DNA of 64,000 bases from Fictibacillus halophilus (GTDB taxonomy: Bacteria; Bacillota; Bacilli; Bacillales; Fictibacillaceae). The position numbers and the translations under genes are program-made. Shown here one piece after another: positions 3,186-64,000 of the stretch; positions within the stretch are counted from its first letter, which is position 1, and every line of letters starts with the position of its first letter. The notes beneath the pieces are model-generated. The model did not search any database. It was not told where the DNA came from and worked only from the letters and a program-made list of their open reading frames with translations. Location: assembly GCF_016401385.1 (NCBI RefSeq), contig NZ_JAEACF010000001.1:2356001-2420000 (forward strand), given 5' to 3'.

Positions 3186-3456
3186 AAAAAACCTTCCGCC
3201 CCTAATAAACATTAGGGACGAAAGGTTAGTTAACAATTTAAACCTGCCGCGGTACCACCCTGATTAATGCAAAAAATCGCATTCACTCGGAAACATACCT
3301 TAACGCGGCGAACGGCAAGCATTACTTCATTCACACTTGCAACTAAAGGGCGAGTTCAAAAAAGTCCGGGTTGACTTGCACCAGCCGTCAACTCTCTATC
3401 ATTTCCATTCTTTTTTTACTATTCCCTATCATCGTTATTAAAAAATTTAGATGTTA
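3186..3456 (-). promoter_or_regulatory. T-box riboswitch of leuS (leucine type)
   Basis: The minus strand carries the invariant T-box sequence AGGGTGGTACCGCG (3261-3248), followed by a strong intrinsic terminator (3227-3190 plus T-run) that overlaps it as competing antiterminator. Upstream, a stem I region with the context GAACTCGCC offers CTC (3354-3352), a leucine codon, as the likely specifier. Uncharged tRNA-Leu is expected to stabilise the antiterminator and allow leuS transcription. Confidence 0.95.
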
Positions 3457-60190: not shown

Positions 60191-60463
60191 CTATTTGTCT
60201 TTGTCTGGGGTCTGACCCGGGGTCAGACCCCCTTGCATAAGCGAAAGCACTTCCTTAACAATCGTGTTTATCTTTTGGTTGATAAATTCATCTCCGAAGC
60301 TTTCTTTTGCTTGCCTGATTGCCGTTATGACTTCTTCATCATATTGAATCAACTCTTCATCATCTTCTGCTTCGTTGTACAAATCGATCATGCTGTCTAA
60401 ACCCTCTTGCATCCGGTCTATCGCTTCACTATATTTCTCTCGATCTTCCTTATTATATTTCAA
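60191..60463 (-). CDS. Small acidic helical protein whose 3' end runs through a palindrome
   Basis: TTG 60463 is 6 bases after AGGTG; GTG 60472 overlaps that site. The 90-residue protein is acidic and helical (YNEAEDDEELIQYDEEV, NTIVKEVLSLMQ). Its last 13 residues (GGLTPGQTPDKDK) are encoded largely by the GC-rich palindrome at 60207-60231, which suggests the original end was altered by insertion of that element. No family recognised. Confidence 0.65.
   Translation of the reverse strand: MKYNKEDREKYSEAIDRMQEGLDSMIDLYNEAEDDEELIQYDEEVITAIRQAKESFGDEFINQKINTIVKEVLSLMQGGLTPGQTPDKDK
60207..60231. repeat. GC-rich palindromic element (GGGGTCTGACCC type)
   Basis: GGGGTCTGACCC and GGGTCAGACCCC form a 12-bp inverted repeat with a single-base centre. 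This kind of GGTCTGACC palindrome is dispersed in several Bacillus genomes, to my knowledge. It is far richer in GC than its surroundings. Confidence 0.75.
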
Positions 60464-60634
60464 CTTCATCACCTAGTCTTAGCTTTTCCATCTATGAGTG
60501 CTATCAAACTCCATAATCATTTACTATCGTGACTTTCTTCCCTATTTTTTCGTATGAAAGTATACTATAATAATTTGGTTATTATTATCTTGAAATATAT
60601 TATTTTACATATTAGTCGGAAGGAGGGGGAACAA

Positions 60635-61066
60635 TTGATCCGCCGTTGGTTTACGAAAAAAAATAAATCATTGCAGCCTGCATTCGAAACAACGTCTTCC
60701 AATTCATCGTTGAGTCTATGCACGAATGCCACGGATGAACCAGATCCTGTAAAAGAAATATCGCATTTTAAAATGCGGCTAAAAGAGTATGGAATAGAGT
60801 TTAGTCACTTAGTCTCCAGCACTCCTAAGGATATTGAAAACAGACAGGAAGCCATAAAAGTTGCTGAAGAAATCTCAAAAGATCCTGAGATGCGGAATTA
60901 CTTTCTAACGTGGAAACGGTTGCCCCTTCTTCATAACGAAAGTACACAGCATCAAAAGCACACCATGAAAAAACAGCGAGAATACATAACCGCTCTTACC
61001 CTTATCTTTATTGAAAATTATCAAGTGTTGCTGCAATATGTTCCTGGCACGGGAGGAAAACACTAA
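60635..61066 (+). CDS. SigI-like protein with only the sigma-I C-terminal domain (no region 2)
   Basis: TTG 60635 is 4-6 bases after AAGGAGGGGG; upstream in-frame sequence to 60554 is hydrophobic and lacks a site. The 143-residue protein has a polar N-terminus (about 1-45) and then FKMRLKEYGIEFSHLVSSTP, ENRQEAIKVAEEISKDPEMR and REYITALTLIFIENY. These align with the C-terminal domain of B. subtilis SigI (QKQLKDYGLSFKELLENSP, QNAIKVA, RKYIIAMCIIITGDY). The sigma region 2 domain (about 120 residues), which binds core polymerase and the -10 box, is missing. It overlaps rsgI by one base. Confidence 0.85.
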   Translation: MIRRWFTKKNKSLQPAFETTSSNSSLSLCTNATDEPDPVKEISHFKMRLKEYGIEFSHLVSSTPKDIENRQEAIKVAEEISKDPEMRNYFLTWKRLPLLHNESTQHQKHTMKKQREYITALTLIFIENYQVLLQYVPGTGGKH

Positions 61067-62712
61067 TGAACAAAGCGATTATTGTAGAAGTTAACAAACG
61101 TCACGTCATCGTTCTTGCTGAGGGCGGAGAATTTAAAAAAATTAAAAATACCAATGCAGCTTATATGGTCGGTCAAGAAATCCGTCTTCCACTAAGACAA
61201 GAGAAGAAAAAATCTACTTTCTCTATCTTCATAAACTGGAAAACCGGTACTGCTGTAGCTCTGGCCATCTTTCTCTTGTTCTTCCAAGTACTTGCACCGA
61301 TATCAGGACCTGGGGCATATGCATATGTGGGCATAAACATGGATCCTAGTCTAGAATTAAAAATTGATGAAGATATGAAAGTTCTGGATATCTATGCTTA
61401 TAATCAGCAAGGACATATGGTTCTTGATCGATTAGACGATTGGGAAAATGAAAAGATTGATATTGTAACTGATCTTATTTTTGAGACGTGTGAAGACCTA
61501 GGTTATTTAAAGGCGAAGGAAGAAGTATTAATTACCACAACCTTATCAGAAGAAATACCTGCTGATAAAGAAAAAGAAATCAAACAACAAGTAAATAAAG
61601 TAATGACAGAGAAAGCTAAAAAGAAATCAATAGAGATGACCACGATCGTGATGAGTTCCAAAGAACGCGAGCAATCGAAGAAGATGAAAATGTCACCTGG
61701 TCATTATGCGATTTATAAAGCAGCTAAGAAGTCTGGTATGAAAATCACAAAGAATGAGATTTCAAGTCTTACTATTGAAGAAATCTCTGAAAAAGTGGGT
61801 CCAATTAAAGAGCTTTTAAAAGAGGATATTGAAACAGTGGATGCCTCTGAAAACAACAAAAAAGACCTTGTATACGAGCCACCTCTTCCTATCTTAGATT
61901 TAAAAGATTCGAGTAACGAGGTGAAAATTGAGCCGGAAGTAATTCCTGTCCAAGAAAAAATACAAGAACCTGAGAAAAAGAAAACGTTTGAATTACCTGT
62001 CAGTCATGCTGAAATTCCAGCAACTCCAAAAAAGGAAGAGAAGCCAGCTGAAAGACCAGTTAAGAGCGAGCAAGAAAAACATGTGAATAACCCTGCTACT
62101 TCTGGTGGAGAGCAGGACAAGAATACACACAAAGCACCTACTAAGAGTACACCTGTGGTCACTGCACCAAAGGAAGAGAAACACAAACAGGAACTACCTA
62201 AAGAGGATAAGCCTAAATCAGAAGTACCAAAAGAAAACATCCCTAAAGAAGCACCGAAGGAAGAGACTCCTAAGGTAGAAACGCCTAAAGAAAAACCTAA
62301 AGAGGAAACTCCTAAAGAAGAGACTCCTAAAGAAGAGACTCCTAAAGAGGAAACTCCTAAAGAAGAGGCTCCTAAAGAAGAGACTCCTAAAGAGGAGACT
62401 CCTAAAGAGGAGACTCCTAAAGAAGAGACTCCTAAAGAACATTGGATTTATATTGAAATTATTATTGATGGGATCATAATAGAAGTCCGCATTAAAGTAA
62501 CATCAGATGTTACTGATGCTGAATTAAAACAACAAGCATTAGCCACTTATCATCAAAATGCTTCACAAGAACATTCATGCCTTACACCAACTTCAGCATT
62601 CACTCAAGAAGTTGAGCAATCTGCTACTTCTGAAGAGCTACAACAAACTAAAGAGAATGAAGTTGGTTCTGACCCAGCCATTGAGGAACCACTTTTAGAA
62701 CAAGCTTCATAA
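61066..62712 (+). CDS. rsgI: RsgI-type anti-sigma-I factor with long disordered extracellular region
   Basis: The 548-residue protein has a cytoplasmic RsgI_N domain (residues 1-57), one membrane segment (about 66-87), a juxtamembrane autoproteolysis domain starting at AYVGINMDPSLELKID, helical parts to about 260, then a Pro/Glu/Lys/Thr-rich tail with nine perfect or near-perfect PKEET units (62296-62430) and a C-terminal segment HWIYIEIIIDGIIIEVRI. RsgI of B. subtilis senses wall defects through its disordered tail and holds SigI. The cleavage site usually reads N-P; here it is D-P. GGGAGG precedes the ATG. Confidence 0.92.
   Translation: MNKAIIVEVNKRHVIVLAEGGEFKKIKNTNAAYMVGQEIRLPLRQEKKKSTFSIFINWKTGTAVALAIFLLFFQVLAPISGPGAYAYVGINMDPSLELKIDEDMKVLDIYAYNQQGHMVLDRLDDWENEKIDIVTDLIFETCEDLGYLKAKEEVLITTTLSEEIPADKEKEIKQQVNKVMTEKAKKKSIEMTTIVMSSKEREQSKKMKMSPGHYAIYKAAKKSGMKITKNEISSLTIEEISEKVGPIKELLKEDIETVDASENNKKDLVYEPPLPILDLKDSSNEVKIEPEVIPVQEKIQEPEKKKTFELPVSHAEIPATPKKEEKPAERPVKSEQEKHVNNPATSGGEQDKNTHKAPTKSTPVVTAPKEEKHKQELPKEDKPKSEVPKENIPKEAPKEETPKVETPKEKPKEETPKEETPKEETPKEETPKEEAPKEETPKEETPKEETPKEETPKEHWIYIEIIIDGIIIEVRIKVTSDVTDAELKQQALATYHQNASQEHSCLTPTSAFTQEVEQSATSEELQQTKENEVGSDPAIEEPLLEQAS
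62296..62430 (+). repeat. Nine tandem 15-bp units encoding PKEET
   Basis: CCTAAAGA(A/G)GA(G/A)(A/G)CT is repeated nine times without interruption inside rsgI; one unit encodes PKEEA. Imperfect units extend upstream to about 62240. Repeat number is likely to vary between strains. Confidence 0.95.
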
Positions 62713-62720
62713 TGAAGTGA

Positions 62721-62753
62721 CCCCAGGACTAAGACTAGTCTTGGGGTTTTTGT
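62721..62753 (+). terminator. Terminator of the sigI-like/rsgI operon
   Basis: CCCCAGGACTA pairs with TAGTCTTGGGG (one G-U pair) around AGAC, followed by TTTTTG. Confidence 0.9.
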
Positions 62754-62815: not shown

Positions 62816-63583
62816 ATGCGGTCTATTTACTATGCTTATCTAAGAATGCCGATGCTGGTTCGCCTTGCCATTATTCTTTTTAGCATTCTAGTTTCAAGCG
62901 CTGTTTTAGCTCACCTCTTAGAGAAAGAAACATTCCCAACTATATTTGAAGGATTCTATTGGGCAGTGATTACGGCAGGCACAGTTGGATATGGCGACTT
63001 CACTCCGGAATCAACTCAAGTAAGGATACTTGCTATTTTCCTTGTATTCATCGGCGCGTCCTTTTTTGCCTTTTTAACGGTCCACTTGGCAAGTTCTGTT
63101 GTTAAAAGAGAAAATCGTTTTTTCGAGGGGAAAAGTATGTATAAAAACAAAGATCACTTTATTATAGTCGGATGGAATGAAAGAGCTAGACATACCATAC
63201 AAGCTCTCAAAGATAAACTCAAATCGAATCATATCGTTCTAATCGATGAGTCTTTAAAAGAAAACCCATTATATGTAGAAGGCATCCATTTTATTCATGC
63301 AAAGCCTAGTGAAGATCAAACGTGGAAGATGGCTCATGTTCAACAGGCACATACCATCCTTATTACGGCTGATGCAAACTTAAAGGAGTATGAAGCTGAT
63401 ATAAACACCATTCTCTCCATTCTAACAGCTAGAGGCTTAAATTCCACAGTATCTATTCATGCAGAAGTATTAACAACAGAGCAAACTACAAACGCCAAAC
63501 GCGCTGGTGCAGATCATATTATACACACGTCTAATCTTGCTTCAAAAGCGATGGTATCTAACCTTGTGAAAGAGATCTTATAA
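62816..63583 (+). CDS. Two-TM potassium channel with RCK_N (TrkA-N) domain
   Basis: The 255-residue protein has two membrane segments (about 14-34 and 73-93) flanking the pore helix and selectivity filter TAGTVGYGDF (residues 54-63). An RCK_N domain follows (HFIIVGWNERARHTIQALKD, LIDESL). Without RCK_C, it resembles B. subtilis YugO (KchA-like) but is shorter. It conducts potassium across the plasma membrane and may be gated by nucleotides. AGGAGGAG lies before the ATG; yugN is next to it, as in B. subtilis. Confidence 0.92.
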   Translation: MRSIYYAYLRMPMLVRLAIILFSILVSSAVLAHLLEKETFPTIFEGFYWAVITAGTVGYGDFTPESTQVRILAIFLVFIGASFFAFLTVHLASSVVKRENRFFEGKSMYKNKDHFIIVGWNERARHTIQALKDKLKSNHIVLIDESLKENPLYVEGIHFIHAKPSEDQTWKMAHVQQAHTILITADANLKEYEADINTILSILTARGLNSTVSIHAEVLTTEQTTNAKRAGADHIIHTSNLASKAMVSNLVKEIL

Positions 63584-63584
63584 G

Positions 63585-63620
63585 AAAAACAGATAGCCAC
63601 TAGGTCTATCTGTTTTTTAA
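63585..63620. terminator. Bidirectional terminator between the channel gene and yugN
   Basis: AAAAACAGATAG pairs with CTATCTGTTTTT around a 9-base loop. Confidence 0.9.
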
Positions 63621-64000
63621 TTTAAAACAGCTGTTTCTACCTTTTTCACTAAATCTTTGGCGATGCCAATCCACTTTTGATCAACCGTTGCATCGGGATC
63701 TTGTGGTTCTGAAAATTGATTAAAACTTCCTGAGATGTTCCCTGTTTCAGCATTATCATCAAGCCCTACCTGATATTTGTGAGCCAACAAAAAGGGTTCA
63801 CCAAATTGTATAGTCGTATCTTTTTTATCTAACTGTCCATCGATAGCTTTAAAAGGAATTCTTAAGAACGTGTATCCCACTTCATCATCAAGCTTATAAT
63901 CAAAATATCCATGATCATAATCCCAGTTTCCTCCGTAAGAGAAGCCCAAACCTTTCAATACATCTTCAGCTTCATTCAGTGCACAACACTCATTTTCAAG
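63617..64000 (-). CDS. yugN: YugN-family protein, 5' end beyond the window
   Basis: The open frame continues past 64000 (127 visible residues; the frame reads LENECCALNEAEDVLKGLG at the edge), so the TTG at 63958 inside it is not the start. The sequence GGNWDYDHGYFDYKLDDEVG, YTFLRIPFKAIDGQLD and IQFGEPFLLAHKYQVGLDD fits the YugN-like family of B. subtilis, cytoplasmic proteins of unknown function encoded next to the YugO channel. The conserved neighbourhood supports the name. Confidence 0.88.
   Translation of the reverse strand, partial: LENECCALNEAEDVLKGLGFSYGGNWDYDHGYFDYKLDDEVGYTFLRIPFKAIDGQLDKKDTTIQFGEPFLLAHKYQVGLDDNAETGNISGSFNQFSEPQDPDATVDQKWIGIAKDLVKKVETAVLN

Follow-up and report, generated by a model that had tools for sequence, protein, structure and literature searches.

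In the SigI-RsgI pairs that have been described, the anti-sigma factor RsgI grips the C-terminal domain of the sigma factor, SigIC, on the same face to which the flap tip of RNA polymerase binds (PMC10575876), and the reported pathway runs from a signal through self-cleavage of RsgI on the periplasmic side, cleavage in the membrane by RseP and degradation by ClpXP to the freeing of SigI (PMC12203970). Each RsgI is described as specifically recognising the SigI of its own pair (PMC10575876, PMC12203970). The subject here is a locus in a window of 64,000 nucleotides, the whole stretch of DNA that was analysed, from Fictibacillus halophilus (contig NZ_JAEACF010000001.1, positions 2,356,001 to 2,420,000), at which rsgI follows a sigI gene, here called short sigI, that encodes the C-terminal domain alone in 143 amino acids. 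The pair is like those of Clostridium thermocellum (SigI1/RsgI1 and SigI6/RsgI6) and Bacillus subtilis in its SigIC fold, its gene order and the presence of RsgI_N and RsgI_M, but short SigI has no N-terminal domain (SigIN), its promoter-reading residues are replaced, and the RsgI_M of its partner carries Asp-Pro and not Asn-Pro. Outside SigI, PhyR of the alphaproteobacteria, which binds the anti-sigma factor NepR, is a further instance of a sigma-derived domain thought to meet an anti-sigma factor and not a promoter; PhyR, however, is described as having sigma-2-like and sigma-4-like parts with a receiver domain and as freeing a sigma factor, whereas short SigI is one domain, has no receiver and has its own co-encoded membrane anti-sigma factor. 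By analogy, short SigI may work like a sigma mimic of the PhyR kind. SigO-RsoA likewise includes a separate protein that corresponds to the -35 half of a sigma factor alone, but there the other half is known and the pair is reported to start transcription, whereas here no SigI-type region-2 partner was found. RsgI9 of C. thermocellum has also been retained although no working SigI is known for it, but as an orphan, an individual factor without a pair (PMC12203970), whereas here a SigI devoid of region 2 stands beside RsgI. No description of a region-2-less SigI was found in the literature searched, in which coverage of SigI was limited. The original prediction, made from the letters of this stretch, had stated that no described example of the arrangement was known to it; within the literature searched this holds for SigI, but PhyR mimicry and the two-subunit SigO-RsoA sigma factor are precedents.

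Ten NCBIfam SigI models match the short protein, each through the C-terminal half only, including TIGR02895 over positions 103-219 of 219 (E 4e-23) and NF006174 over positions 140-248 of 252 (E 6.5e-24); the scores lie below the curated whole-protein cut-offs, as expected because half a protein is compared. All model matches start at a profile position of at least 103, and SigIN with region 2, the part that binds core polymerase and the -10 element, is thus absent. There is no room for a region-2 domain upstream, because the gap between the TTG start codon and the divergent mstX gene (open reading frame start 60472) is only 162 bases. A profile search of 5.8 billion proteins, covering lengths of up to 1.75 times that of the query and relatives sharing short exact words with it, returned 27 proteins at E <=0.001, all of 101-163 amino acids; with one 101-amino acid piece (P0019) left out and the window's protein added, these gave an alignment of 27 members. 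Since all 26 other members match the same two SigI models, the match of the short protein is beyond chance. The SigIC core of this family is conserved, with invariant columns, and Trp5 of the basic N-terminal motif is present in 26 of the 27 members, the remaining one starting later. Three structures in the PDB were matched, namely 6ivu_B (the SigI1 C-domain in the RsgI1-SigI1 complex, E 1e-10) and full SigI1 and SigI6 in open complexes, both through their C-domains; a Pfam search gave no convincing family (none at E 0.001). The AlphaFold model is predicted to have the SigIC fold, and Foldseek returned three SigI hits for it (E 1.2e-3, 2e-2 and 0.36; probabilities 1.00, 1.00 and 0.99), values that are weak, so that the assignment of the fold depends partly on rank, no other fold being prominent. 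The description of the gene in the original prediction, SigIC alone with region 2 truly absent, was borne out in coordinates, length and domain content.

The short form is shared by two GTDB genera, the window's own and a sister genus, both publicly named Fictibacillus. In a survey of 198 genomes, 26 of the best matches listed were shorter than 180 amino acids: 17 from the window's genus (own genome, G000, included), eight from the sister genus and one, G173, from another family of the order. Short sigI is present in the window's own genome and, at 69-97% identity, in 16 of the 17 others of the genus; the last, G017, has a strongly diverged form of 140 amino acids at the same place, overlapping rsgI. 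It was also found in 7/7 sampled genomes of the sister genus, at 29-38% identity depending on the alignment, giving 25 carriers among 25 genomes (18 and seven), with the frame open in all. The outcome named beforehand as refuting, a form short only here among relatives with a normal-length sigI, did not occur, and the proposed search of related genomes found the short form conserved. Elsewhere in the family, eight genomes of g3 and one of g4 were sampled; each gave one SigI match, in a long frame, with no short form among the matches listed. The further sigI that the original prediction had suggested looking for was found as well: the genome (3.92 Mb, nine contigs) holds a second, full-length pair, a SigI of 259 and an RsgI of 409 amino acids, which makes short sigI an additional paralogue. 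Of the 25 carriers, 22 were seen to have a full-length sigI (G000-G018, G023, G027 and G030), G021, G025 and G028 lying outside this check. In G013 (L127) the full gene is broken into a 217-amino acid frame and a separate 3' piece, through either sequencing error or real loss. Three candidates were set aside: G030:C12, one of the eight listed for the sister genus, is a degenerate copy of full sigI near transposase-like open reading frames and retains Pro-Lys-His; L043, from Lachnospiraceae, is full length (254 amino acids); and the 120-amino acid SigIC-like frame of G173 (L052:4143-4505; Asn at position 171) stands without a recognisable RsgI neighbour, and no region 2 was seen upstream of it in any of three frames.

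Beyond the loss of region 2, the residues that read the promoter have changed. In the open-complex structures His171 of SigI6 is described in the minor groove, with Lys170, Arg172 and Ser174 adjacent, and Arg215 with others in the major groove. Comparison was made with 61 distinct full-length SigI proteins, 60 of which reach positions 215 and 218. At position 171 these have His (47), Gln (13) or Ala (1) and never an acidic residue, whereas the 17 close relatives in the window's genus have Glu (9) or Asp (8), and the other eight short forms (sister genus and G017) Thr, Ser or Arg. Position 215 is Lys in all 60, His or Leu in the 17 and Lys (7) or Arg (1) in the eight; position 218 is Glu or Asp in all 60 and Lys in the 17, with the qualification that the helix-turn-helix part of the short family is aligned with a one-residue shift, which makes single columns there less certain. 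His171 alone was dropped as a test of function, since 13 full-length proteins carry Gln. Short SigI of the window's genus thus departs from SigI sigma factors in two defining features: region 2 is absent, and the set of basic or polar minor-groove residues (Lys170, His171) with a basic residue at 215 is not intact.

The ratio of nonsynonymous to synonymous differences (pN/pS, taken as mean pN over mean pS) was calculated for short sigI in 17 genomes of the genus and for full sigI in 16. Within the short gene, residues 1-12 give 0.26, the linker (13-37) 0.63 and the C-domain 0.16; in full sigI the ratio is 0.039 for SigIN and 0.013 for linker plus SigIC. For the rsgI partner the values are 0.22 (cytoplasmic part), 0.22 (membrane part) and 0.17 (RsgI_M), and RsgI_N of the full-length pair gives 0.18 (15 genomes). 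On this codon comparison short sigI is under purifying selection, and the view that the gene pair is selected holds for both genes. In a tree of 47 SigIC domains, rooted at the midpoint, with 16 of 44 inner branches drawn open and long branches for G297 and G017, the 12 Fictibacillus short forms included fall into a single clade (98/96), which is separate from the full SigI of the family; short sigI was therefore not recently cut from the resident sigI. Identity between its product and the corresponding domain of the full SigI in the same genome is 27%.

The partner is a complete RsgI, in which RsgI_N scores above its cut-off and RsgI_M 99.5 bits, with a hydrophobic stretch, read by eye at about residues 58-79 and putatively a membrane helix, between them. 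We take Asn-Pro in RsgI_M to be the self-cleavage motif. The window's protein has Asp93-Pro94 at this place and the genome's other RsgI Asn-Pro; the putative cleavage dipeptide is Asp-Pro in 17/17 of the window's genus and Glu-Pro in G017. Asn-Pro is kept in six of seven sister-genus proteins, and the Asp-Pro state is hence not general. Asp-Pro at the putative cleavage site would fit an RsgI with no sigma factor left to free. The two genes overlap by one base in 14 of 17 genomes of the genus, abut in two and overlap by four bases in one. The signal for ClpXP has been described as an XAA degron in the membrane helix of RsgI (PMC12203970), which was not seen in that of the window's RsgI (TAVALA); this comparison is uninformative because several relatives have Ala-Ala.

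A second group of genomes in the phylum shows the same truncation at a different locus. In a survey of the phylum (149 genomes, 81 with a match, 109 matches listed) four listed matches were shorter than 180 amino acids, G000, G202, G239 and G297, of which G000 and G297 alone hold up: directly upstream in G202, region 2 lies in a different frame, and G239 is cut by a contig end, as G398 is by a run of N. The SigI of G202 (L158:3212-3842) lies in two overlapping frames of 97 and 126 amino acids, which may reflect a frameshift, an error or a truly split gene. In G297 a SigIC-only gene of 170 amino acids overlaps a 193-amino acid RsgI between, as judged by eye, a DUF2905-like gene and queA. Beside a queA-like gene, G347 has a short SigI of 150 amino acids with an RsgI of 243, G351 a short SigI of 143 with an RsgI that ends after the membrane helix, and G346 a full SigI of 250 with RsgI; G348 has a pair of the same kind as G351 (queA side unread). 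In G349, G350 and G353, SigIC, RsgI_N and the membrane helix form a single open reading frame. These one-frame genes have no internal stops over the 185-186 codons compared, the stops counted in G350 and G353 lying upstream of that stretch, and pN/pS is 0.34-0.45; Pfam confirms RsgI_N in the G349 frame, the one run, and the start codons of the fusions are unsettled. Most assemblies of this group are fragmented. Position 171 is Asn in G297, Asp in G347 and Ser in G351 and G349; the full SigI of G346 has His there. A profile search for the group gave nine proteins, two of them named, from Syntrophothermus lipocalidus and a Solirubrobacterales metagenome record. The tree of SigIC domains places these short forms elsewhere than the Fictibacillus clade and leaves the number of truncation events within the group undecided.

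The reading preferred here, to which we give a probability of roughly 0.55, is that short SigI is a promoter-blind relic of a sigma factor, retained as a dedicated cytoplasmic partner of RsgI and no longer a sigma factor itself. An old, separate SigI paralogue would have lost region 2, with its contacts to core RNA polymerase and the -10 element, and the residues that read the -35 element, and would have kept the SigIC fold, that is, the domain gripped by RsgI. Short SigI and the co-encoded RsgI would be made together and give a complex at the membrane, in which the short protein would occupy, or relay from, the cytoplasmic domain of RsgI. Were a signal to free it, the only known remaining target of its RsgI-binding face would be the beta-flap tip, at which it could block another sigma factor and not direct transcription. 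We infer the binding of short SigI to RsgI, and with it the ratio, the persistence and the function of the complex. A SigIC without SigIN and without promoter-reading residues should not act as a sigma factor, and, given the overlap with rsgI and the natural SigIC-RsgI_N fusions elsewhere, a dedicated partner complex is the reading that needs least. A more far-reaching suggestion, tentative and with the odds somewhat against it, is that two separate lineages have each turned a sigma/anti-sigma switch into a membrane signalling complex without a sigma factor, the binding domains being fused into one membrane-anchored protein in one of them; the output of such a complex would lie outside promoter selection, for instance in the stability or localisation of RsgI, or in blocking of the RNA polymerase flap.

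A number of observations weigh against the short protein being a promoter-blind partner. Position 170 is still Lys in 13 of the 17 and the altered helix of the helix-turn-helix is still basic, so that some DNA binding is possible; the full-length proteins with Gln at 171 belong to one related group, and His is thus no absolute marker; the sister genus retains a basic residue at 215. In that genus, too, rsgI begins 9-13 bases past the sigI stop in six of seven genomes, with a four-base overlap in one. The rate of evolution of short sigI is far above that of full sigI (0.16 in the C-domain of the short gene vs 0.013 in linker plus SigIC of the full one). Fusions in the second group have no extracellular sensor, are under weaker constraint (0.34-0.45) and come from mostly fragmented assemblies, and may be on their way out.

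An alternative that we consider unlikely takes the flap tip as the real target: on an envelope signal RsgI would let go and the short protein would dock on the flap tip and thereby block either sigma-A, at region 4, or full SigI, at its C-domain. Short SigI would then be, with equally low probability, a signal-controlled regulator resembling an anti-sigma factor. The use of one SigIC face for both RsgI and the flap tip in the solved complexes, as these are reported, agrees with this, as do the conserved SigIC core and an RsgI that still has cytoplasmic and extracytoplasmic domains, but the one-frame fusions of the second group tie SigIC to RsgI_N and the membrane, and the dipeptide presumed to be cut is Asp-Pro in all 17 close relatives. 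Distinctly less probable is a decoy or titrator that binds the housekeeping RsgI and so frees full SigI by sigma mimicry like that described for PhyR; the full-length gene accompanies the short one in the 22 genomes given above and the domain retained is the one that RsgI grips, but co-expression with its own RsgI would neutralise the short protein, whose identity with the C-domain of full SigI is as low as 27% and which falls in a separate clade, and recognition is described as specific to cognate pairs. For drift of a redundant pair whose function is lost, one may point to the strong divergence of G017, the faster evolution relative to full sigI and the minimal RsgI and fusions of the second group; open frames in 25/25 genomes, a C-domain pN/pS of 0.16, columns without variation and the retention in two genera of the paired promoter-like words make such slow decay highly improbable.

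A split sigma factor, in which the short protein would be joined by a region 2 from another gene, in the manner of the two-subunit SigO-RsoA of B. subtilis already described, is likewise highly improbable. PF04542 finds 27 region-2 domains in the genome, but with the region 2 of SigI as query the only strong match is full SigI (E 8e-78), the next (2e-4) being a frame of 233 amino acids. Reading of the 27 frames by eye turned up one orphan protein of 112 amino acids, of the extracytoplasmic function (ECF) type, with region 2 and without region 4 (G000:C1:465139-465474); inspection by eye of 3.2 kb around it revealed no anti-sigma-like gene. Among the 18 genomes of the genus it is intact in 14 (at least 53% identity), carries a stop in G014 and has a 35% relative in G017; G007 and G009 gave only weak matches to longer proteins, and a search of G018, G021 and G023 of the sister genus found no orphan of this short kind. 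All of these have short SigI, and the orphan is not the partner candidate expected because its distribution does not track that of the short protein, whose DNA-reading residues are moreover replaced. The proposed search for orphan region-2 genes thus yielded one of ECF type, which is not co-distributed, and no strong match of SigI type outside full SigI. Finally, an error of sequencing or assembly, or a region 2 hidden by a frameshift, can be dismissed with near certainty: such cases occur elsewhere (G202, G239 and G398) and nothing speaks for one at this locus, where all 25 genomes agree, three of them (G004, G007 and G015) within one contig, and where only 162 bases precede mstX. This explanation is refuted because relatives share the short form. 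Of the three roles first proposed for the short protein, that of an adaptor fits best, while the split sigma factor is disfavoured and the titrator weakened.

Anti-sigma factors are usually regarded as silencers of a sigma factor. If short SigI is indeed a non-sigma operon partner, its conserved RsgI would represent a sensing half with an output of its own, or SigIC a sigma domain used as a regulatory ligand. The SigIC-RsgI_N fusions, and the presence of short and full SigI in one genome, make the question directly testable.

Features of the short sigI-rsgI locus (positions within the window)
Feature	Position	Strand	Evidence
mstX (Mistic), divergent neighbour, upstream boundary of the locus	60191..60472	-	Pfam PF11458 Mistic, E 4e-32
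Conserved promoter-like stretch: TGACT (60530-60534) and ATACTATAAT (60562-60571; TATAAT 60566-60571)	60530..60571	+	Alignment, word count
Shine-Dalgarno sequence AAGGAGGGGG	60620..60629	+	Sequence; kept in genus alignment
Short sigI, SigI C-terminal domain only, 143 amino acids, TTG start	60635..61066	+	
Conserved N-terminal motif (M)IRRWFTKKNK of short SigI	60635..60667	+	Family alignment
SigIC domain of short SigI, residues 38-136, DNA-contact positions altered	60746..61042	+	
rsgI, 548 amino acids, one-base overlap with the short sigI stop (TAATG)	61066..62712	+	
RsgI_N cytoplasmic domain, residues 1-40 of RsgI; binds SigI in known RsgI proteins	61066..61185	+	PF12791, E 4e-13
RsgI_M extracytoplasmic domain, residues 85-218 of RsgI	61318..61719	+	PF23750, E 3e-28
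Terminator-like hairpin between rsgI and the channel gene	62719..62748	+	
yugO-like potassium channel gene, downstream neighbour	62816..63583	+	PF07885, PF02254
yugN-like gene, cut by the window end, conserved synteny	63617..64000	-	PF08868, E 5e-49

In 22 of 24 genomes (16 of 17 in the window's genus, 6 of 7 in the sister genus) the words TGACT and ATACTATAAT upstream of short sigI are separated by the same spacing, exactly 32 bases; the second word is missing in G010 and the first in G021. No -35 element was recognised within the promoter-like stretch, and a consensus sigma-70 scan called no promoter upstream of the gene. The leader from the TATAAT-like box to the Shine-Dalgarno region (60572-60609) is nearly invariant across the genus, beyond the needs of a plain leader, and may contain an operator or a second promoter. 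The consensus published for SigI promoters of Bacillales, ACCCCC..AA N15 CGAA (PMC4711584), found no match upstream of short sigI in 24 genomes and none upstream of full sigI in 20, and the search is uninformative on autoregulation because this control failed too. A relaxed form of the pattern matches the plus strand of the window at 3199, 22093, 26077 and 32176, distant from any sigI; these matches may be due to chance. The start codon of short sigI is TTG in 15, GTG in one and ATG in one of 17 genomes; the TTG start is supported by the conserved Shine-Dalgarno sequence, the exchange of TTG, GTG and ATG at this codon and the conserved N-terminal motif. There is a longer in-frame start, ATG at 60554, but its position falls within the promoter-like stretch.

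In B. subtilis mstX and yugO are described as a two-gene operon (PMC3667857), whereas in the window the sigI-rsgI pair is placed between mstX and the yugO-like gene. In tblastn searches mstX lay on the far side of the locus in 18/18 genomes of the window's genus and was not found at 7/7 sister-genus loci; the yugO-like channel gene is downstream of rsgI in 18/18 and 7/7, respectively. At the corresponding locus of G020 (L141) there is no sigI-rsgI pair, and CotH- and CotG-like open reading frames stand before the channel gene. Six of the seven sister-genus loci (L045-L050, not that of G018) have a CotH gene with CotG- and CotB-like genes between rsgI and the channel gene, CotH being confirmed by Pfam in L045 only and the likeness to CotG and CotB judged by eye; with such neighbours, it is possible that the short sigI-rsgI locus is linked to sporulation.

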